NCBI GenBank assembly: GCA_018819065.1
Contig: JAHJQL010000078.1
Coordinates: forward strand, 1 to 54,972
Origin: Nanobdellota archaeon
GTDB lineage: Archaea; Nanobdellota; Nanobdellia; Woesearchaeales; GCA-2686295
DNA length: 54,972 nucleotides
Direction: 5' to 3'
Below, in pieces: positions 17,443 to 51,177 of this stretch (position 1 is the first letter of the stretch; each line of letters starts with the position of its first letter). The translations under genes were made by a program, and so were the position numbers. A model generated the notes under the pieces. It was not told the DNA's origin. It made no database searches and saw only the letters and a program-made list of their open reading frames with translations.

Positions 17443-17480
17443 ACAAAGATTTATTAATTATTAACTTTTTATAATTGTTT

Positions 17481-19463
17481 ATGGGTTATACTAAAGAATT
17501 ATCTTCTCTTGACAAGAAGAGCGTCTTGTTAGCAGGTGGTAAGGGAGCATCTCTTGGAGAGATGATAAGTGCAGGTATATCTGTGCCTCCTGGATTTGTG
17601 ATTTTATCCACAGCTTTTGAACGTTTTCTTAAAGAAACAAGATTAATAGTAGAGATTGATGCAGCTTTAGATAAAGTAAATCATGAAGAAGTGCACACAG
17701 TTGAAAAAGCATCAGAAAGCATTAAAGCATTGATAATGAATGCAGATATGTCTAAGGATATAAAAGAAGAAATAGAAAAAGAGTTTAAAGTTCTCGGAGC
17801 AGATTTTGTAGCAGTTAGATCATCAGCAACAGCAGAAGACTCAGCAACAGCTGCATGGGCAGGACAACTTGAAAGCTATCTTAATACAACCTCAAAAACA
17901 CTTCTTGATAACGTGAAAAAATGTTGGGCATCATTGTACACTCCGCGAGCCATATTTTATCGTTTTGAGAAAAAACTTCACAAGGATAAAGTTTCTGTAG
18001 CAGTTGTTGTGCAAAAAATGGTACAAAGCGAAGAATCTGGAATAGCTTTTTCAGTCCATCCTGTAACGCAGGACTATAACCAATTAATAATAGAGGCAGG
18101 GTTTGGTCTTGGTGAAGCAATAGTTTCAGGGCAAATAACACCCGATAGCTACGTTGTGAGAAAGAAAGAACTTGAAATAGAAGAAAAAATTGTGAATGAA
18201 CAAGAAAGGATGCTTGTGAAGAAAAAAGACGGCGGAATAGAATTGGTAGATGTTCTTCAACCAACAAAACAAGTATTGACAGACACAGAAATAATAGAGT
18301 TGAGTAAATTAATAATAAAAATAGAAGAACACTACAGTTTTCCAGTAGATATAGAATGGGCAAGAGATAAGAGAAAGTTCTATATTGTTCAGAGCAGACC
18401 GATAACGACGCTGACTTCTAAACCTGCTGTTCAAAGAGCAAATCTCTACAACAAAGTATTCTCAAGAGACTTCTGTCTTGCACACCTTGAGATATGGTAC
18501 AGAGGAGAAAGCACCAATCCCAAGATATGGACAGATAAAAAACAGCCGTTTTTGCCCTACATAGTTTTTGAAAGGAGAGACGGAACAGTAAATTCGTATT
18601 ATGACATGAAAGGCTTCAAGTGGATCAAGGAACTACTTGTAAAAACAGCAAAGAAAAATAAAAGATTCATTAAACTTCTGGAAGAAACAGTCTGCAGAGA
18701 AGTGAAGAAGATAAAACCTATCTATGAAAAAAGAAAAACTTTGAAATGGAACAATCTTGTTGTATTCTTAGCAGACTTTGAAGAGATGTTTCCCTGGCTT
18801 GAAGCAATGTTTTTGTTCTGCGAGATGAGCAAGGAAGAAGTAAAAGGACTTGACATAACGAATATAAGGAACCTTCGGGAAGAGCTAGGAGACTTATCAG
18901 TAGGAGTTGATGAAGTCATAAGAAAATCACTTGAGGAAATATATCCGGACAAGAAAGAATATTCTGAAGTCATGACAGTGGCAGAAATACTGGCAGATAA
19001 GATTCTACCTGTCCCTAAACTAAAGCAAAGGAATGAGAAATATTATTTTACAGGCAATAAGCTGTTTACAGGAGTCGATAAGGAGTTTATAGAAAAAAAA
19101 TTCAGGATACGTTTTGAAAAAACAGATGCGCCAGACAGCCTAAAAGAACTGAAAGGACAGAGGGCTTATCCTGGAATCGTCAGAGGCAAAGTTAGGCGGG
19201 TGATGGGAAGAAAGCAGATACCAACCCTGAAAAAAGGAGAGATACTGGTCTCTCCGATGACCATGCCGGACTTTCTGCCTGCAATCAGGAACGCCGCGGC
19301 GATAGTCACTGACGAAGGCGGAATCACCTGCCACGCAGCAATCGTCGCAAGAGAACTTCACAAACCTTGTATCGTTGGAACAAAGATTGCGACACAAGTA
19401 TTCAAAGATGGCGATATAATCGAAGTTGACGCAAACAAAGGGATTGTTAGAAAGATAAATTAA
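17481..19463 (+). CDS. PEP-synthase-like dikinase with an unknown central domain
   Basis: A 660-residue phosphotransferase built as ATP-grasp, novel domain, then phosphohistidine domain. Residues about 1-315 are the PEP-synthase-type ATP-binding domain (GGKGASLGEM near 18-27, VRSSATAEDSATAAWAGQ near 113-130, ending DIEWARDKRKFYIVQSRPI). Residues about 320-560 match nothing I recognise and are charged and mostly helical (RDFCLAHLEIWYRG, IKELLVKTAKKNKRF). Residues about 565-660 are the swivelling domain with the catalytic histidine His618 in GGITCHAAIVAREL. The PEP/pyruvate TIM barrel of PEP synthase is absent. The same layout occurs in rifampin phosphotransferase, where the middle domain holds the acceptor. 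It should therefore move a phosphate from ATP to an unidentified substrate. I use the ATG, not the TTG at 17475. Confidence 0.85.
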   Translation: MGYTKELSSLDKKSVLLAGGKGASLGEMISAGISVPPGFVILSTAFERFLKETRLIVEIDAALDKVNHEEVHTVEKASESIKALIMNADMSKDIKEEIEKEFKVLGADFVAVRSSATAEDSATAAWAGQLESYLNTTSKTLLDNVKKCWASLYTPRAIFYRFEKKLHKDKVSVAVVVQKMVQSEESGIAFSVHPVTQDYNQLIIEAGFGLGEAIVSGQITPDSYVVRKKELEIEEKIVNEQERMLVKKKDGGIELVDVLQPTKQVLTDTEIIELSKLIIKIEEHYSFPVDIEWARDKRKFYIVQSRPITTLTSKPAVQRANLYNKVFSRDFCLAHLEIWYRGESTNPKIWTDKKQPFLPYIVFERRDGTVNSYYDMKGFKWIKELLVKTAKKNKRFIKLLEETVCREVKKIKPIYEKRKTLKWNNLVVFLADFEEMFPWLEAMFLFCEMSKEEVKGLDITNIRNLREELGDLSVGVDEVIRKSLEEIYPDKKEYSEVMTVAEILADKILPVPKLKQRNEKYYFTGNKLFTGVDKEFIEKKFRIRFEKTDAPDSLKELKGQRAYPGIVRGKVRRVMGRKQIPTLKKGEILVSPMTMPDFLPAIRNAAAIVTDEGGITCHAAIVARELHKPCIVGTKIATQVFKDGDIIEVDANKGIVRKIN

Positions 19464-19793
19464 TTATTTTTGTTTTTTCTTCTTTTCAAAATAAGTCTTC
19501 ACATCTGAACTAACTTTTGGTTTTGCACCTGCACCGTTTTCATAATATTTTTTCTCAGCGGTTTCTCCCCATGAATATTCTCCTTTTTCTTTTACACTTT
19601 TTACTATGAATTCTCCTGTCAAAACTCCTTTTCTAAGATGATAGTAAATAAGTCGTTGACTAACTTTTGGAAATAGTTCAATGTATGCTTTATGCACTTC
19701 ATATCCATATCCTTTTTTCATAAAATAGAGTATTTCAATGATGTTTTGTCTAACAACACTTCCAATTGGTCTTCCTGCAGTCATTCTTTTCAT
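19464..19793 (-). CDS. Small winged-helix DNA-binding protein
   Basis: A 109-residue basic protein that begins AGRPIGSVVRQNIIEIL and continues as a winged helix (about 10-85; KGYGYEVHKAY, RLIYYHLRKGV). It resembles a PadR-type or related archaeal wHTH family with the opening GRP-x-S-x-x-R-x-N. The C-terminal 25 residues are lysine-rich and probably disordered. It is convergent with the dikinase gene, stop to stop with no gap, and divergent from the tRNA methyltransferase gene 53 bp away, which it might control. No ligand domain is present. DNA binding is likely; the target is unknown. Confidence 0.75.
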   Translation of the reverse strand: MKRMTAGRPIGSVVRQNIIEILYFMKKGYGYEVHKAYIELFPKVSQRLIYYHLRKGVLTGEFIVKSVKEKGEYSWGETAEKKYYENGAGAKPKVSSDVKTYFEKKKKQK

Positions 19794-19846
19794 TATTGAA
19801 ATTAATTATATAAATGTTTTTAAAACAGTTCAAATTAGAACAATTC

Positions 19847-20782
19847 ATGTATGCATATTATCTAAGCAAGCAAAACCTTGACTTAAGTGTCGCAGAAGTA
19901 TTGGCTTTGTCAAAAAACGAGAAATACACATTGATTGATAATTTATTAGTTCTTGATGAGTTAGTTGATTATAAGCGATTGGCTTATACAAAGAGTGTTT
20001 ATGAATTGTTGTTTTTATGCGAGAAAAAAGAGTTGAAGAATAAGCTGCAAAATTATGATTTTGAAAAAATTTATCGTGAGAATTTTCGGTTAAATGTCAT
20101 CGGCAGTTCTGAATTTGAAACCGGTAAACTAGCAGACATAATCTGGAAAAAAATCAAAAAACCAGTTGTAGATTTGAAGAATGCTAAAACTAAGATAGAC
20201 ATTATTTTTTCAAAACAAATATTTGTTTGTCTACTGATTGAGGAACTCAAAGACAAGTTTGAAAAAAGAAGAGCACACTTAAGACCTTATAATCATCCAA
20301 CATCTCTTCATCCTCGGCTTGCAAGGTGCCTTGTAAATTTAGCGAATTCAAAACGAATACTTGATCCTTTCTGTGGTTCTGGAGGAATATTAATAGAAGC
20401 AGGACTTATAAGTCTAGACATCTGTGGTTTTGACATTGACAAAATAATGCTTAAGAGATGCAAAGAAAACCTTGAATATTTCAAAATAAAGAATTATAAG
20501 CTTGAAGAAAAAGATGCTTTGAAGATTGACAGAAAATTTGAGTGTATAGTTACAGACCTTCCTTACGGAAAAAATTCTAAGGTTAAGGATTTGAAAGAAA
20601 CTTATTTTAAATTTCTCTTTAAAGCTTCAAAGTGTGTTGAAAGAATGGTTGTTGTATTTCCTGATTGTGTCGACTCTGAAAAAATAATAAAAGAAAGTGG
20701 CTGGAATGTTAAAAACAGTTTTAATTATTACATTCATAAGAGCATGACTAAAAAAATATTCATCCTAGGAAAACATTGTTAA
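19847..20782 (+). CDS. tRNA (guanine-N2) methyltransferase, Trm11/TrmG10-like
   Basis: SAM-dependent RNA methyltransferase predicted to modify G10 of tRNA to m2G/m2,2G. The 311-residue protein has an N-terminal THUMP-like region (about 1-150; FEKIYRENFRLNVI) and a C-terminal Rossmann methyltransferase with HPRLARCLVNLA, the SAM motif LDPFCGSGGILIEA and the catalytic motif TDLPYGKN. The last is the N/D-P-P-Y type motif of N2-guanine methylases, with Leu in the third position. I choose the ATG at 19847 (MYAYYLSKQN) because it better fits the family than the upstream ATG at 19814, which is also close to the TATA-like ATTATATAAATG. Its 3' end overlaps the convergent gene by 18 bp. Confidence 0.85.
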   Translation: MYAYYLSKQNLDLSVAEVLALSKNEKYTLIDNLLVLDELVDYKRLAYTKSVYELLFLCEKKELKNKLQNYDFEKIYRENFRLNVIGSSEFETGKLADIIWKKIKKPVVDLKNAKTKIDIIFSKQIFVCLLIEELKDKFEKRRAHLRPYNHPTSLHPRLARCLVNLANSKRILDPFCGSGGILIEAGLISLDICGFDIDKIMLKRCKENLEYFKIKNYKLEEKDALKIDRKFECIVTDLPYGKNSKVKDLKETYFKFLFKASKCVERMVVVFPDCVDSEKIIKESGWNVKNSFNYYIHKSMTKKIFILGKHC

Positions 20783-22540
20783 GAAATTTTTAGCAGTTCT
20801 CAAGGCAATTGTTCCTTCTTCAATCTCATACTCTTCACCATTTTCAATCTTTTGCCTCATCTTGTGAACTCTCTTTATCTCGTGAATGAAAGGTATTCGA
20901 ACTGATTGCTTTAAATTCATAATCGCCTCTTCAAAAGATGCTGGTTTTGAGCCAAGCAGCGTTTCATGTTTTTTGCTTAATGCATGAAAAATTGCTTCAT
21001 CACTCAAAACAATTATGTGTTTAATCTTTTCATGAGCTTCTTCTATCTTTTTTGCAGGATCTTTTTCAAGTATAGTTTTAGACTTCGTCTCTTTATATTT
21101 ATCTTCACTCTTTGAAGATTCTTCAACATCTGAGAATATGAAGTCATCATTTTCTTTTTCACTAACAACCCCTTCATCATTTGAAGTTTCTTCATCGTCA
21201 GATTCATCTTTTTTTGGAATAGTTATCTTATTATCAATTTCTCTAACTTCTTTAAGAATCCTCTTAGCTTTCTCTTCAATCTCATCTTCTTTTTCTGTCT
21301 CTTGCTCGTACTTTTCAATCTCTTCTAAAAAAGCGACGTCATCATCAAAGTCAACCTCTTCAATTTCTATACCGTTCTCCTTTGGTTCAACTTTGGTTTT
21401 TTGTGGTTTTGGCAGTTGTGCTTGTTCTTCTTCTGATGTATAGTAATATTCAGGCTTGGGAATTAGAACTTCATCTGTTATTTTATCCTCCGGACTCTCT
21501 CTTTCATCATCATCAGGGAGGGGAACTTCATCTGTTATCTGGTCAACAGCATCTTCTTCACTACTGGTTGTGAGCGCGACTTCCTCTTCAAATTTCACAA
21601 TTCTATTGACAAACAAGATGTACATCTTGTTCTTTGAAATAGTCATGAAAGTTTTTATTGGTTTTTCAATTATGTTCTCAATTTTTTTAGTAATCCTGGC
21701 AATCTCCTCAATATCCTTGTCGTTGACTTTTTGTTTTTCACCATCATTCTTCAAGGGCTTTTTTATCAGTATTTCAGACAAGGGATCTCTGGCGAGTTGA
21801 AACTCTTGAAAGTTTATCTTTGAATTTTTGACTGCCTGTTTATCCTTTAAGAAGACGACGATATCTTTTCCAAACTCATTCTCATAATCTTGAAATCCAA
21901 AGAAAGTCTTGACTGTAACCTCGTTTTCATCCGTATAAGTTTGAGCTGAGACTTTTGAATCAATCATCCTTTGAACTATCACACCCATTTTCTCCTTTGT
22001 GTCAATGTCGCTGTTCTTGCGATATATCAAAGATTTGGGTGTGTAAAGAGTTACCCAGCAGCTCTTTATGGCTTTTAACAAATTGTTTTTCCCTCTGATG
22101 TTTTGAAAGACACAATCATTATTCTCAGAGTAATCAAGGTAATTTGGGCTTCCAATTATTGTCAAGAAAGGCTTTTCAATGGTTGTGACTAGCTTAGAAA
22201 TGTCTAGATGGTCCATGTCGATTGCTAATGTTTCATAAGACTCTGATATCTCATTTTGCATGTCTTGAGGGAACTCACAGCTCATGATAATCTCAGATAT
22301 CTTTGCACATGCTTCATTTAAAGAATTCTTATTTGAGTAGTCAATATTCTTCAAAGCGTTCTCTAGATGTTGTTTTATGTTGTTGCTTTCAATGAACTCA
22401 TCAAACATGGAGCTCTTTATGACAAAGCAAATTGGGATGTTAAGCTTTTTATTGTAAAGCGCCGCTAAATCAACTGCTTTAAACCCTACGATGTCTGAGT
22501 CAGATCTGTTTATTTTGTTAAGAGTGAGTATGTTATCCAT
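20765..22540 (-). CDS. Degenerate PEP-synthase-like ATP-grasp protein with acidic linker
   Basis: A 591-residue protein whose first ~315 residues align with the ATP-binding domain of PEP synthase and of the dikinase encoded nearby. Shared blocks are KSCWVTLYTPKSLIYR (versus KKCWASLYTPRAIFYR), GVIVQRMIDS (versus VVVQKMVQS) and the closing strand KNKMYILFVNRI. The catalytic segments are gone: VRSSATAEDS is replaced by IIGSPNYLDYS and the glycine loop GGKGASL by GFKAVDL. Residues about 318-485 are very rich in Glu and Asp and likely disordered. The last ~100 residues form a helical domain (ALSKKHETLLGSKPASFEEA, HKMRQKIENG, ALRTAKNFL) that loosely resembles a HEPN fold. It is likely a pseudoenzyme or scaffold; no function is assignable. 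It sits upstream of no obvious partner. Confidence 0.8.
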   Translation of the reverse strand: MDNILTLNKINRSDSDIVGFKAVDLAALYNKKLNIPICFVIKSSMFDEFIESNNIKQHLENALKNIDYSNKNSLNEACAKISEIIMSCEFPQDMQNEISESYETLAIDMDHLDISKLVTTIEKPFLTIIGSPNYLDYSENNDCVFQNIRGKNNLLKAIKSCWVTLYTPKSLIYRKNSDIDTKEKMGVIVQRMIDSKVSAQTYTDENEVTVKTFFGFQDYENEFGKDIVVFLKDKQAVKNSKINFQEFQLARDPLSEILIKKPLKNDGEKQKVNDKDIEEIARITKKIENIIEKPIKTFMTISKNKMYILFVNRIVKFEEEVALTTSSEEDAVDQITDEVPLPDDDERESPEDKITDEVLIPKPEYYYTSEEEQAQLPKPQKTKVEPKENGIEIEEVDFDDDVAFLEEIEKYEQETEKEDEIEEKAKRILKEVREIDNKITIPKKDESDDEETSNDEGVVSEKENDDFIFSDVEESSKSEDKYKETKSKTILEKDPAKKIEEAHEKIKHIIVLSDEAIFHALSKKHETLLGSKPASFEEAIMNLKQSVRIPFIHEIKRVHKMRQKIENGEEYEIEEGTIALRTAKNFLTMFS

Positions 22541-22599
22541 GTTTGCACTTCCTTTCTCGAGAATTAAAATGTGAAAGATATTATTTAAACTTTGTGATT

Positions 22600-23385
22600 T
22601 TAATCTAAAAACTTCTTTGCTTCCTCGACGGTTTTTCCTTGTATTACTATGTTTTGAACTGCTTTTGTTAGACTGAATGGTTTATCATGTTGCCAGATGT
22701 TTCTTCCAACAGCAAGACCAATAGCTCCAGTCTTCATAATCTCCGATGACATTTTCAAAAACTCAAGAGGCTCTGTTTTTTCTCCTCCAGATATGACTAC
22801 TTTAGTCCTGCCGGCATTTTTGACAATCCACTTGAAACCTTCAAAATCTTGGTTGTACTGCATCTTTATAATGTCTGCGCCAAGCTCAGCTCCAATCCTT
22901 GCAGCATAGGCTAAAATATTTGTGTCCTTTTGGTTTTGGACAAACTTTCCACGAGGATACATCCATGCAATGGTCGGTAAGCCATAATCATGGGCTGTGT
23001 CTACAATCTTGCTGAACTCAACCATCATCTCGTTTTCTTTCTCGCTTCCACTGTAAATAGTGTACCCGACACCTGTTGCGCCAAGCTTGATGGCTCTTTC
23101 GACACTACAAAGCTGCTTGGATATTGGCTCGAGTTTAGTGATGTTTGTCTGGCCGTTAAGCTTTACAATTAAAGGAATGTCTTTATAATAGTCTTGATAG
23201 TATTTCTCAGCTATTCCATGCTGTAGTATTACAGCGTTGTAATGCCCCTCTAAAGCTATATCTAAGATGTAGTTTGGATCACAATTCTTAAGATTAAAAT
23301 CTATTGGTCCATGCTCCATACCCTGGTCATAAGCTAAGAATATTGCTTTACCATTTGTAAGAAGCTTGTTGATTTGAATACCCAT
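22600..23385 (-). CDS. Class I fructose-bisphosphate aldolase (archaeal DhnA type)
   Basis: Cleaves or forms fructose 1,6-bisphosphate from triose phosphates through a Schiff base; used in glycolysis and gluconeogenesis. The 261 residues form a TIM barrel with AYDQGMEHGP (18-27), the WMYPRG loop near 141-146, the Schiff-base lysine Lys174 in ADIIKMQY, and phosphate-binding GGEKTE and GLAVGRNIWQ near the C-terminus. This matches the archaeal type represented by T. tenax FBA, not the class II zinc enzyme. A GAGGT SD precedes the ATG. It is followed upstream by a PfkB kinase gene on the same strand (53 bp), so the two sugar-phosphate genes may be one operon. The nearby PPDK fits a gluconeogenic or PPi-linked route. 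Confidence 0.93.
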   Translation of the reverse strand: MGIQINKLLTNGKAIFLAYDQGMEHGPIDFNLKNCDPNYILDIALEGHYNAVILQHGIAEKYYQDYYKDIPLIVKLNGQTNITKLEPISKQLCSVERAIKLGATGVGYTIYSGSEKENEMMVEFSKIVDTAHDYGLPTIAWMYPRGKFVQNQKDTNILAYAARIGAELGADIIKMQYNQDFEGFKWIVKNAGRTKVVISGGEKTEPLEFLKMSSEIMKTGAIGLAVGRNIWQHDKPFSLTKAVQNIVIQGKTVEEAKKFLD

Positions 23386-23438: not shown

Positions 23439-24419
23439 TTATAGTTTCCTCTTTTTAACCACTCTTTTATCTTTCTTAAGTTTTTTTGATAGTTCCTTGT
23501 CAGATAACAGAATGTTTTTTGCGCCGTAGTTCTCAATTACCGACTCTGCATTTATACTAGCCATTCTAAGACAATCCTCAACCTTCTTGTTTTTCATAAT
23601 TCCAGCCACAAAAGTTGACGCAAAAGCATCACCTGCACCAGTTGTTTCCTTGACTTTTCGATTCTTATTAGGATTTACCTCGTACAAAAATCTGCCATCA
23701 TAGCAAAACGCGCCTTTAGGACCATCAGTTATTATTATGAAATCCATGTTTGGAAGCTTTAACCTCTTAACAAGATCTGGAATGTTACCTTTACCAACTA
23801 TTAGTTCAGCCTCTTGCTTGTTAAGAATGAATATGTTTGTATTTTCAAGAATTTTTTTGATGTAAGAAAAACCTTTCTGTGCTAAGTATGATGAAGCGTT
23901 AAATGCAACTTTTATATTATTCTTCTTTGCATGCTCTGAGAGTTTTTTTAGCGTCTCAAAACTCTTACCCATCATGCTTGCAAAGTAAAACCATTCAGCC
24001 TTAAGATTTTTAAGGTTTAATTCCTTAAAAGAAAGGTTGTTGTTGCAACCCTTATAAGTGAGTATTGTCCTGTCTTCTTTAATGGAGTCAAGGATTATGG
24101 AGTAGCCGCCAACTATTCCAAGCGTTCCTAAAAAGTCAATTTTCTCATCTTTTAAAAGCTTAAAAACCTTTAATCCATTTTCGTCTCTCCCAATCTTTCC
24201 AAGATAACCAGTTTTAAAACCCTGCCTTGCAAAAGAAACAGCAGTATTAGTGCCACCACCACCAATCATAAACTCTAATTCAGTAATTAAAATCTTTGAG
24301 CCTAAAGGATAAGCAAGCAGCGCCTCAGTAGTTGTCTTAGTCCTAATCTCCACAAGTTCAGAATCAGTCTTAGCAAAGACATCAACAGTATTAGAACCAA
24401 CCGCTATAACATCGTACAA
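23439..24419 (-). CDS. PfkB/ribokinase family sugar kinase
   Basis: ATP-dependent kinase of the ribokinase fold. The 326 residues show the family N-terminus (M)YDVIAVGSNTVDVF, the substrate-binding GGGGTNTAVSFARQGF (near 53-68), KIGRDENG, and the catalytic anion hole TTGAGDAFASTFVAGI near 275-290 with the GAGD aspartate as base. The substrate cannot be read from sequence; a phosphofructokinase, ribokinase or nucleoside kinase role is possible. It begins at TTG (24419): GAGGTG lies 7 nt upstream and no ATG fits the conserved N-terminus. The FBP aldolase gene follows 53 bp downstream on the same strand, which makes fructose-6-phosphate or another glycolytic sugar a reasonable guess. Confidence 0.88.
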   Translation of the reverse strand: MYDVIAVGSNTVDVFAKTDSELVEIRTKTTTEALLAYPLGSKILITELEFMIGGGGTNTAVSFARQGFKTGYLGKIGRDENGLKVFKLLKDEKIDFLGTLGIVGGYSIILDSIKEDRTILTYKGCNNNLSFKELNLKNLKAEWFYFASMMGKSFETLKKLSEHAKKNNIKVAFNASSYLAQKGFSYIKKILENTNIFILNKQEAELIVGKGNIPDLVKRLKLPNMDFIIITDGPKGAFCYDGRFLYEVNPNKNRKVKETTGAGDAFASTFVAGIMKNKKVEDCLRMASINAESVIENYGAKNILLSDKELSKKLKKDKRVVKKRKL

Positions 24420-25509: not shown

Positions 25510-26109
25510 TTAGACGGGTGCACCTTTCTCTTCCCTGTACAGCTTTGGCTCTTTAAATGGTGTTTTTAACTGCAAGAACCTCTTTATCTCCCTATTCAAA
25601 TCATAACACTTCTCTCTAAGTTCTTTTTTATGAAATTCATAATAAGGCTTGTATATTCTGTTCATGAAGAATGGGTGAAATGGTTTTAGAAATTTACTGT
25701 TCTCCCACTTGTTTTGGTAATCCATCTGAAGCCATCCTTCACAATACAATATCAAGTCACCTTTCCAAGTCTTGTATTTTACACCATCAACAACAGTCTC
25801 TACCTTTTGCATGTTTAAGCCCAGATAGTCAAGTTTTAGAACATACCTAATGTAAGGATTGCGTCTAGGAACGTGTATTACTCGCCACCATATACGATAC
25901 TCTTTTGAGCCTCCGGGGAGTTCTTTTTCATAGTAGTACCGCTCATAGTTTTCGCCATCATCAACAGGGTCTTTCCACTCATTTTCATTAATAAAATCAT
26001 GAATTAGCTTGTAAAGGTTCTTGAAATGAAATACATCCTCATACTCAATCTCCCACTTTGCTTCCATTCTATCACGAAGCTTATCGCCGGGCCGAAAGAG
26101 TTTATCCAT
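25510..26109 (-). CDS. Uncharacterised protein rich in aromatic residues
   Basis: A 199-residue soluble protein that I do not recognise. It has alternating charged and aromatic strands (ERYYYEKELPGGSKEYRIWW near 56-75, YIRYVLKLDYLGLNMQKVETV near 85-106) that look like an antiparallel beta-sheet, and a helical C-terminus (YKPYYEFHKKELREKCYDLNREIKRFL). There is no signal peptide or membrane helix. It sits between a PHP-domain gene and nurA on the same strand with gaps of about 35 bp, so it may belong to a small operon with them. Coding is credible from its length, frame and spacing; no function is proposed. Confidence 0.75.
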   Translation of the reverse strand: MDKLFRPGDKLRDRMEAKWEIEYEDVFHFKNLYKLIHDFINENEWKDPVDDGENYERYYYEKELPGGSKEYRIWWRVIHVPRRNPYIRYVLKLDYLGLNMQKVETVVDGVKYKTWKGDLILYCEGWLQMDYQNKWENSKFLKPFHPFFMNRIYKPYYEFHKKELREKCYDLNREIKRFLQLKTPFKEPKLYREEKGAPV

Positions 26110-48414: not shown

Positions 48415-48552
48415 GCTAATTTTTTTTTAATATATTATTTATTATAACTATCTTTAAAAAGACTTTGAGTTTCTTAAATTAATAGTGATTTTAGATTCTA
48501 AAGGAATCTTTTTAAAGTAATACTTATATAAGAAGTAAAGGTGTGTAGAAGA

Positions 48553-51177
48553 ATGAAAAAACACGTATATTATTTTGGAAAAATAGGGACACAAGGAAGC
48601 AAAGACATGAAAGGAATTCTGGGAGGTAAAGGAGCAAACCTTGCAGAAATGGCAAGTCTTGGAGTGCCTGTACCGCCAGGATTTACAATCACAACAGAGA
48701 CTTGCGCAGAATACTACGAGGCAGGCAAGAAAATACCTTTGCAAGCAATAAAAGAAATAGAAGAAAACCTAAAAAAAGTAGAAGCAGAAGTGGGTGCAAA
48801 ACTAGGAGATAAAGAAAAACCATTGCTTTTATCAGTTAGAAGCGGAGCAGCCGCAAGCATGCCAGGAATGATGGATACAATCCTAAACTTAGGACTAAAC
48901 GAAGAAACAATCCAAGGACTAATCAAAAAGTCAGGAAACGAGCGATTTGCATGGGACTCATACAGACGACTAATAAATATGTTTGGAGACGTAGTCATGG
49001 GTGTGGACCACGCTGACTTTGAAGAAATACTAGACAACGCAAAAGAGACAAAAGGAGTGAAGTTTGACACAGACCTAGACGCAAAAGACCTAAAAGAAAT
49101 AGTAGAAAAATACAAAGCACTAGTAAAAAAGAAAACTAAAAAAGAATTTCCAAACAACCCAAAAGAACAACTTATGATGGCAATAGACGCAGTTTTTGAC
49201 TCATGGCACAACGAAAGAGCAGAAGCATACAGACGGCTAAATCACGTCAAAGGACTCAAAGGAACAGCGGTAAACGTACAAGCAATGGTGTTTGGAAACA
49301 TGGGAGAAACATCAGGAACAGGAGTCTGCTTCTCAAGAGACCCAGCAACTGGGGAAAACGTGTTCTACGGAGAATACTTGATGAACGCACAGGGAGAAGA
49401 CGTGGTTGCAGGCATAAGAACGCCAAGACCAATATCAGAACTAAAAAAAGTGATGCCAAAAGCCTATGAAGAACTTTTAGTCATATACAAAAAACTCGAA
49501 AAACACTATAAAGACATGCAAGACATGGAATTCACTATTCAAGACAAGAAGCTATACATGCTGCAAACCAGAAACGGCAAAAGAACAGCACACGCAGCAG
49601 TAAGAATGGCAGTTGAAATGATAGAAGAAGGATTAATTGATGAAAAAACAGCTGTTCTTAGAGTTGACCCAAACCAGCTAGACCAGTTGCTTCACAAACA
49701 ACTAGACCCAGTTGCAAAGCAAAAACATGAATCACTAGGAAAAGGACTACCAGCATCACCAGGAGGAGCTGTTGGAAAAATAGCTTTTGACAACGACTCA
49801 GCAATAGAGATGAAAAAAGCAGGCGACTCAGTAATTTTAGTAAGAAACGAGACCAGCCCAGAAGACTTAATGGGGATGGACGCAGCAGTAGGAATACTAA
49901 CAGCAAAAGGAGGAATGACCTCACACGCCGCAGTCGTAGCCAGAGGAATGGGAAAATGCTGTGTATCAGGACTCGGAGAAGCAAAGGTAAGCGAAAAAAA
50001 CAAGACACTAGAACTAGGTGGACAAAAATTCAAAGAAGGAGACTACATAACACTAGATGGAAGCAGCGGAGAAGTTTACGCAGGAAAAATCCCAACGACA
50101 GAACCAGAACTATCAGGTGCATTTGGAAAACTCATGAAGTATGCAGACAAGTTTAGAACGATGGGAGTAAGAACAAACGCAGACACCCCAAGAGACGCAA
50201 GCCAAGCCATTAAGTTTGGAGCAGAAGGAATAGGACTATGCAGGACAGAACACATGTTCTTTGAAGGAGAAAGAATAAGAGCAGTCAGAGAAATGATACT
50301 ATCACCAAACCTTGAAGGACGAAAAAAAGCACTTGCAAAAATTAAGCCATTCCAAAAAAAAGACTTCGTAGATTTGTTTAAGATAATGAATGGACTTCCA
50401 ATAACGATACGATTGCTAGATCCACCGCTGCACGAATTCTTGCCAAAAGAAGAAAATGAGATAAAAGAAATAGCCAAAGAACTAAAAGTTAGCGTTGACG
50501 CAATAAAGCAAAAGATAAACGCGCTACACGAAGTAAACCCGATGCTAGGACACAGAGGATGTCGCTTAGGAATAACCTATCCAGAAATAACACAGATGCA
50601 GTCAGAAGCAATCTTTGAAGCAGCAAAAGAAGTTTCAAAGTCAGGAATAGAAGTAAAACCAGAAATCATGATACCACTAGTTGGAACTGTAAATGAGCTA
50701 ACAAACCAAAAAGAAATAGTCCTAGAAGTTGCAAACAATGTGCTTGGAAAAGATTCAAAAGTAAAATACTTAATCGGAACAATGATAGAAGTGCCCCGTG
50801 CAGCACTAACAGCAGACGAGATAGCAAAAGAAGCAGAATTCTTTAGCTTTGGAACAAACGACTTAACACAGATGACACTAGGATTCTCAAGAGACGACGT
50901 CGGAAGCTTTGTACCTGAATACATAAACAAAGGAATAATAGAACAAGACCCATTCCAAATATTAGACCAAACAGGCGTTGGACAACTAGTGAAAATGGCT
51001 GTGGAGAAAGGAAGAAAAGCAAGGCCAAACCTAAAAATAGGAATCTGCGGAGAACACGGCGGAGAACCAAGCTCAGTGATATTTTGCCACAAAGCAGGAC
51101 TAAACTACGTCAGCTGCTCACCATACAGAGTCCCAATAGCAAAACTAGCAGCAGCACACGCAGTCTTGAAAGGATGA
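48553..51177 (+). CDS. ppdK: Pyruvate, phosphate dikinase
   Basis: Reversibly makes PEP, AMP and PPi from pyruvate, ATP and Pi, linking glycolysis or gluconeogenesis with PPi. The 874 residues match the standard length. The ATP-grasp domain (about 1-340) has GGKGANLAEMASLGVPVPPG (22-41) and VRSGAAASMPGMMDT (about 92-106). The phosphohistidine domain (about 390-500) has GGMTSHAAVVARGMG with the catalytic His. The PEP/pyruvate TIM barrel (about 510-870) has the GLCRTEHMFF and FGTNDLTQM signatures near the C-terminus, with catalytic Cys in GICGEHGGEP. I use ATG at 48553 (MKKHVYYF) with GGTG 9 nt upstream; GTG at 48541 gives four extra residues. It is transcribed alone, downstream of gatE. Confidence 0.97.
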   Translation: MKKHVYYFGKIGTQGSKDMKGILGGKGANLAEMASLGVPVPPGFTITTETCAEYYEAGKKIPLQAIKEIEENLKKVEAEVGAKLGDKEKPLLLSVRSGAAASMPGMMDTILNLGLNEETIQGLIKKSGNERFAWDSYRRLINMFGDVVMGVDHADFEEILDNAKETKGVKFDTDLDAKDLKEIVEKYKALVKKKTKKEFPNNPKEQLMMAIDAVFDSWHNERAEAYRRLNHVKGLKGTAVNVQAMVFGNMGETSGTGVCFSRDPATGENVFYGEYLMNAQGEDVVAGIRTPRPISELKKVMPKAYEELLVIYKKLEKHYKDMQDMEFTIQDKKLYMLQTRNGKRTAHAAVRMAVEMIEEGLIDEKTAVLRVDPNQLDQLLHKQLDPVAKQKHESLGKGLPASPGGAVGKIAFDNDSAIEMKKAGDSVILVRNETSPEDLMGMDAAVGILTAKGGMTSHAAVVARGMGKCCVSGLGEAKVSEKNKTLELGGQKFKEGDYITLDGSSGEVYAGKIPTTEPELSGAFGKLMKYADKFRTMGVRTNADTPRDASQAIKFGAEGIGLCRTEHMFFEGERIRAVREMILSPNLEGRKKALAKIKPFQKKDFVDLFKIMNGLPITIRLLDPPLHEFLPKEENEIKEIAKELKVSVDAIKQKINALHEVNPMLGHRGCRLGITYPEITQMQSEAIFEAAKEVSKSGIEVKPEIMIPLVGTVNELTNQKEIVLEVANNVLGKDSKVKYLIGTMIEVPRAALTADEIAKEAEFFSFGTNDLTQMTLGFSRDDVGSFVPEYINKGIIEQDPFQILDQTGVGQLVKMAVEKGRKARPNLKIGICGEHGGEPSSVIFCHKAGLNYVSCSPYRVPIAKLAAAHAVLKG

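Follow-up and report, generated by a model that had tools for sequence, protein, structure and literature searches.

A degenerate PEP synthase, most likely converted in place, and its possible role as an adaptor in one woesearchaeal order

The window analysed here is the 54,972-nt contig JAHJQL010000078.1 of the Nanobdellota archaeon assembly GCA_018819065.1, a 1.5 Mb genome whose named relatives are Candidatus Woesearchaeota and DPANN metagenome assemblies. An open reading frame on its reverse strand (22540..20765, −) encodes a pseudo-PEP-synthase of 591 aa with a strong Pfam match to PPDK_N (E=2.3e-34). The protein is built of three parts: a catalytically degenerate ATP-grasp head of the PEP-synthase type (residues ~1–316; 21593..22540, −), an acidic disordered linker (residues 317–494; 21059..21592, −) and a C-terminal four-helix domain (residues 495–591; 20768..21058, −). 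AF2 models, computed from shallow alignments of 5–6 rows (six for the full-length protein), predicted a confident head at residues 1–316 (pLDDT mostly 70–94), a stretch with pLDDT <50 at 317–495 and helices at 495–591. Foldseek matched the head in the PDB to the rifampin phosphotransferase RPH-Lm (5hv1, E=1.2e-19), to 5hv6_B (TM-score (target) 0.83) and to PEP synthases, so that Pfam, AF2 and Foldseek all indicate a retained ATP-grasp fold. No phosphohistidine swivel domain (PF00391) was detected by Pfam within the 591 residues, and the scores against TIGR01418 (113.6 versus a cut-off of 739.75) and NF005057 (110.9 versus 598) both stayed below the family level. A sequence-only reading of this DNA had described a recognisable PEP-synthase-type fold, a 165-residue acidic linker and a helical end domain, all of which were borne out; residues 320–485 contain 36.7% Asp+Glu, with a net charge of −40.

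The gene belongs to a conserved block of PfkB, aldolase, pseudoenzyme, convergent Trm11-like, wHTH, S2P, eIF5A, SprT and aRF1 genes. Neighbourhood comparison identified two upstream, codirectional syntenic markers in the window, a DhnA-type aldolase (22600–23385, −) and a PfkB-family sugar kinase (23439–24419, −); the convergent marker, a Trm11-like (TIGR01177) methyltransferase (19814..20782, +), overlaps the 3′ end of the pseudoenzyme gene by 18 nt and was present at 37 of 57 loci. A TATA-like box, TTTAAATA, lies 42–49 nt upstream of the start codon (22582..22589, −). Because most family genes likewise have such a box shortly upstream, co-transcription with the aldolase gene need not be assumed, and an operon with aldolase and PfkB is weakened as proof of a metabolic role. 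The remaining marker close to the gene is a small wHTH-like protein (19464..19793, −) that has no significant Pfam match, carries an invariant YSWG motif and is encoded by a core gene of the order; a specific link between the two was rejected, as 302 of the order's 353 genomes have the wHTH gene, whether or not they encode the pseudoenzyme. Elsewhere in the window, a conserved protein of unknown function adjoining NurA (25510–26109, −) showed a sub-threshold match to an archaeal Argonaute PAZ domain (E=0.0019, 18.9 of 27 bits).

In the ATP site of PPDK and RPH, Q309 and R311 are among the contacts. Together with K22, R117, T136 and E297 of RPH-Lm (PMC4844700), they made up the six contacts that were scored (in double numbering R117/R92, E297/E323, Q309/Q335 and R311/R337). 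At K22, R117, T136, E297, Q309 and R311 the window protein has K, I, V, F, F and N, respectively, and thus keeps one contact of six, Lys21 (codon 22478..22480, −), the equivalent of the catalytic Lys22. The stretch IIGSPNYLDYS (residues 128–138; 22127..22159, −) aligns with VRSSATAED and replaces the RSSATAED phosphate loop, its Ser131 being invariant among close relatives in an SPNY-like setting. Lys296 (codon 21653..21655, −) takes the place of the QDIEW Asp, D321 of PPDK. All 23 close relatives keep zero or one contact: the R117 position is occupied by I, V or F (one A), T136 by V or I (two A, one F), E297, the Glu two residues past the QDIEW Asp, by Phe or Tyr in 17 of the 23, and Q309 mostly by F or L. 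The Lys22 position is basic in 20 of the 23 (17 R, 3 K), the QDIEW Asp is K or R in 20, and the Q190 position is Gln in 22. Since the contact positions are mostly hydrophobic in these 23 closest members, their phosphate/metal site was largely replaced by hydrophobic residues and did not drift at random. The earlier claim that the phosphate motifs are lost, with VRSSATAEDS turned into IIGSPNYLDYS, therefore stands for five of the six contacts, and contact-by-contact scoring against RPH-Lm supported a dead head; what had been overlooked is that the Lys22 position is still basic. Continued binding of a nucleotide or some other metabolite by the head, with the tail passing on the signal, is unlikely: R117, T136, E297, Q309 and R311 are lost across nearly the whole clade, and the R117A and T136V exchanges in RPH-Lm raise the Km for ATP about 6-fold and abolish rifampin phosphorylation (PMC4844700), although the near-invariant hinge Gln190, the basic Lys22 position and the exchange of the metal-site Asp for Lys/Arg would all suit such a ligand sensor.

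Searches for the family covered 60 relatives and the order's 353 genomes, with 56 neighbourhoods fetched. This yielded 55 degenerate proteins, that of the window and 54 further relatives, all from a single woesearchaeal order; 21 of them keep none of the six contacts, five keep one and the rest keep two to six. Nearly all of the relatives carry the acidic linker, and a recognisable tail domain is missing in about half of the family members. Within the genus of the window, identity amounts to about 60% in the head, 53–57% in the tail and 25–38% in the linker, and head dN values of 0.17–0.29 at dS values of at least 1.8 or saturated point to purifying selection on the head. Arg117 and Glu297 are kept in many intermediates, some of which could therefore bind ATP or carry out other chemistry. 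An extremely diverged member (L142:1498-2925, genome G034), whose head escaped searches that started from the window protein, has the architecture and the wHTH neighbour intact. At several loci (L037:10263-10778, L122:10157-10669, L131:7341-7853 and others) all within one family, a second all-helical protein of ~170 aa is encoded directly after the pseudoenzyme gene, often overlapping it, and is a candidate partner.

Composition sets the linker apart: residues 317–494 are 36.5% Asp+Glu with a net charge of −41, and the net charge was negative in all 54 linkers scored. A short motif of the DDFIFS/ESIFSS type was found in 18 of these 54 linkers, compared with 0.6 among shuffled linkers; in the window protein it reads DDFIFS (residues 465–470; 21131..21148, −). 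The tail, modelled alone by AF2, folds as four helices with a mean pLDDT of 90, and its plausible solved-fold matches in Foldseek are dominated by HEPN proteins, including 2hsb (probability 0.96, TMq 0.69) and several HepT chains, none of them at E <0.001. An iterative profile recovered the domain in 29 family proteins, one of which (L093B) is a separate ORF downstream of its pseudoenzyme gene. At strong E-values the domain is confined to this one order, and none was found outside the pseudoenzyme family in the proteomes of the 60 relatives; a Pfam scan of the 29 tails gave no recurring family and a sequence profile search of the PDB gave chance-level matches only. The HEPN motif Rx4-6H occurs in 8 of the 29 tails versus 7.5 in shuffled sequences, and the family tails share no conserved R or H column at the RIPFIH of the window protein, so the data lend no support to an active HEPN RNase; the motif is also missing from some HEPN families (PMC3710099). 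The suggestion of a HEPN-like tail extends at most to the modelled fold: the domain resembles the four-helix fold of AF0298 (2hsb) and HepT, yet differs from them in having neither a conserved Rx4-6H nor a significant Foldseek E-value. No MNT partner was noticed in the pseudoenzyme neighbourhoods examined.

The origin of the gene can be traced through its position. In families f7, f12, f87, f35 and f62, the locus of the pseudoenzyme is taken, in the same context and orientation, by a full-length PEP synthase (747–799 residues) that carries RSSATAED and mostly also a recognisable His motif. Among 18 loci examined with an intact PEP synthase, 15 had at least one synteny marker and 10 at least two (L153–L156, L158, L160, L163, L165, L167 and L169). 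As relatives encode the intact enzyme at the same position and orientation, conversion in place is the simplest account. All degenerate proteins fell on one side of a branch in the tree (support 98/92); the pseudoenzymes were not placed beside the syntenic PEP synthases with support, the link being one of position, and a single clade of both was neither rejected by the AU test (p=0.34) nor required. Across the family the number of contacts kept ranges from zero to six. At the upper end, L118 (genome G298), located beside Trm11 and wHTH, has all six contacts and the acidic linker, and its C-terminal stretch is swivel-like by eye and has no His motif; this member supports conversion in place. 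The pseudoenzyme is thus most likely a syntenic ortholog of PEP synthase that was converted in place through graded intermediates. Of 16 genomes that have the pseudoenzyme, 13 also have a second type of PEP synthase, as against 1 of 6 genomes that have the intact related type (Fisher p=0.011). These counts were made by hand on the match signatures of the 60 relatives, in groups that are not phylogenetically independent; they suggest that catalysis passed to another PEP synthase.

Dikinases are also encoded in the window. The nearest is a short dikinase (17475–19463, +) 1.3 kb from the pseudoenzyme gene, composed of PPDK_N, ~230 unassigned residues and a swivel-His domain and devoid of the PEP-binding domain; a complete pyruvate, phosphate dikinase (TIGR01828, 1413 bits) lies at 48541–51177 (+). 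The window genome has its own full-length PEP synthase (G000:C35:22810-25400, L047), in which an insertion, possibly an intein, splits the swivel domain (PF00391 positions 1–35 and 34–72 about 1.2 kb apart). No polyphosphate kinase was found in this genome, which is uninformative. In other genomes, tandem arrays of ~420–530-aa proteins with a C-terminal phosphohistidine swivel domain were observed (L151, G322:C23:108000-124000; L152, G004:C31:5500-25000; similar arrays at G005:C12/C14, G006:C37, G007:C45 and G270:C18), with 46, 39 and 21 PF00391 matches in G322, G005 and G004, respectively. Each array contains or adjoins one stand-alone intact PPDK_N ATP-grasp gene (~300–320 aa), often with start-stop overlap, and gives the impression of a single kinase module that supplies dozens of acceptor proteins; the short dikinase of the window looks like a fused form of these array proteins.

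The proximity of the short dikinase had led to the suggestion that the pseudoenzyme regulates it. In its general form, the dead head would compete for or dock the swivelling phosphohistidine domain of an active dikinase and thereby tune PEP–pyruvate flux, which would agree with the derivation of the head from PEP synthase, with the aldolase and PfkB-family kinase genes adjoining it in many lineages and with the excess of second PEP synthases described above. We nevertheless regard such a regulator as improbable. The neighbouring dikinase is not conserved, there being none between S2P and wHTH in the congeners L031, L033 and L034, and the pseudoenzyme gene has its own TATA-like box. Furthermore, the pseudoenzyme is kept in genomes with no recognisable intact enzyme of the PEP-synthase/PPDK type, all of them drafts in which absence is not proof: G008 (95% complete) has no PPDK_N match besides the pseudoenzyme, G065 (97% complete) has one other PPDK_N-like protein that lacks the His domain and no swivel domain match, and G062 (86% complete) has neither an intact PPDK_N dikinase nor a swivel domain match. 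Owing to the lack of conservation of the neighbouring dikinase and to these three genomes, a role requiring an active dikinase is unlikely to be the general job of the pseudoenzyme.

The evolutionary part of our reading is well supported; its functional part we infer from architecture and conservation. With a probability of roughly 0.55, a PEP synthase gave up catalysis at its original locus and was retained because it binds other molecules, acting as a non-catalytic, multivalent adaptor or scaffold that works with a partner other than an intact dikinase. Four steps of this account have data behind them. The gene lies, in matching orientation, where related lineages still have a full-length PEP synthase of the active type. 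Its product lost the swivel-His and PEP-binding domains and gained the acidic linker and the new four-helix domain. In the clade of the window protein, mostly hydrophobic side chains took the place of the polar triphosphate/Mg site, with purifying selection maintaining the fold. The protein also persists in nearly complete genomes with no recognisable intact PEP-synthase/PPDK-type enzyme. For the mechanism, the combination of a head that is apparently non-catalytic, a charged tether bearing a short motif and a tail fold that often self-associates suggests the anatomy of an adaptor: a partner or ligand may dock on the folded head, and the acidic tether with its DDFIF motif may contact a further partner. 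Self-association is common among HEPN domains, and the four-helix tail, which resembles them in fold with no Foldseek E-value <0.001, may do the same. The sequence-only reading had offered, as its other option, an unrelated recruited scaffold; a scaffold fits the data better, and the word unrelated has to be dropped, since relatives keep an intact PEP synthase at this very position.

A different chemistry performed on the old fold, as in pseudokinases found to catalyse other transfers, seems remote: the metal ligands are lost, hydrophobic residues have moved in and no new catalytic triad or metal site is recognisable, notwithstanding the newly conserved SPNY loop and basic cleft residues and the migrated catalytic residues known from pseudoenzymes (PMC10211241). 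Least probable is a transcription regulator by analogy with the haloarchaeal repressor PspR, a precedent for PEP-synthase-like proteins in that role (PMC10948481) that could be joined to the small wHTH gene nearby at 27 of 57 loci, because the ATP, His and DNA-binding central domains of PspR are absent or lost here, the wHTH gene is found throughout the order irrespective of the pseudoenzyme and the linker is strongly acidic.

Among known systems, PEP synthase itself (pyruvate, water dikinase; PF01326 head, TIGR01418) shares the ATP-grasp fold and the syntenic position and provides the best sequence relatives; unlike it, the window protein lacks the swivel-His domain, the PEP/pyruvate domain and the ATP contacts, and has a new acidic linker and tail. 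The closest solved folds of the head are RPH (5hv1) and the HpeI-type stand-alone ATP-grasp subunit (9goj); RPH differs from the window head in keeping its catalytic residues and working with a swivel-His domain (PMC4844700). PspR of Haloferax mediterranei, likewise a PEP-synthase-like protein of an archaeon that took on a non-metabolic role, is the nearest functional precedent and has a different architecture: it keeps the three-domain plan including the ATP and His domains and the His residue, and binds DNA through the central domain (PMC10948481), whereas only the head is present in the window protein and the site of the new function differs. The literature searched contained no description of this pseudoenzyme family, and within it the terms 'ATP-grasp' and 'pseudoenzyme' came together only in a paper on TTLL12, likewise a pseudoenzyme of an ATP-grasp family, which belongs to the eukaryotic tubulin-ligase family and has an unrelated architecture.

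Most studies of pseudoenzymes treat them as paralogs of active enzymes. In this case it is apparently the locus that was converted, and intact, intermediate and fully degenerate orthologs share one position in related genomes, so that the order of events becomes testable, that is, which contacts were lost first and when the tail and linker arose. We tentatively propose, at slightly less than even chances, that a PEP synthase gene became a conserved pseudoenzyme adaptor in place across one order, graded from L118 to the filled ATP site, and that it documents, throughout that order, how an enzyme became a scaffold with a job unrelated to PEP metabolism. As the window protein scores far above the Pfam cut-off and yet lacks the catalytic residues, metabolic reconstructions should not take every PPDK_N match in a DPANN genome for a PEP synthase.
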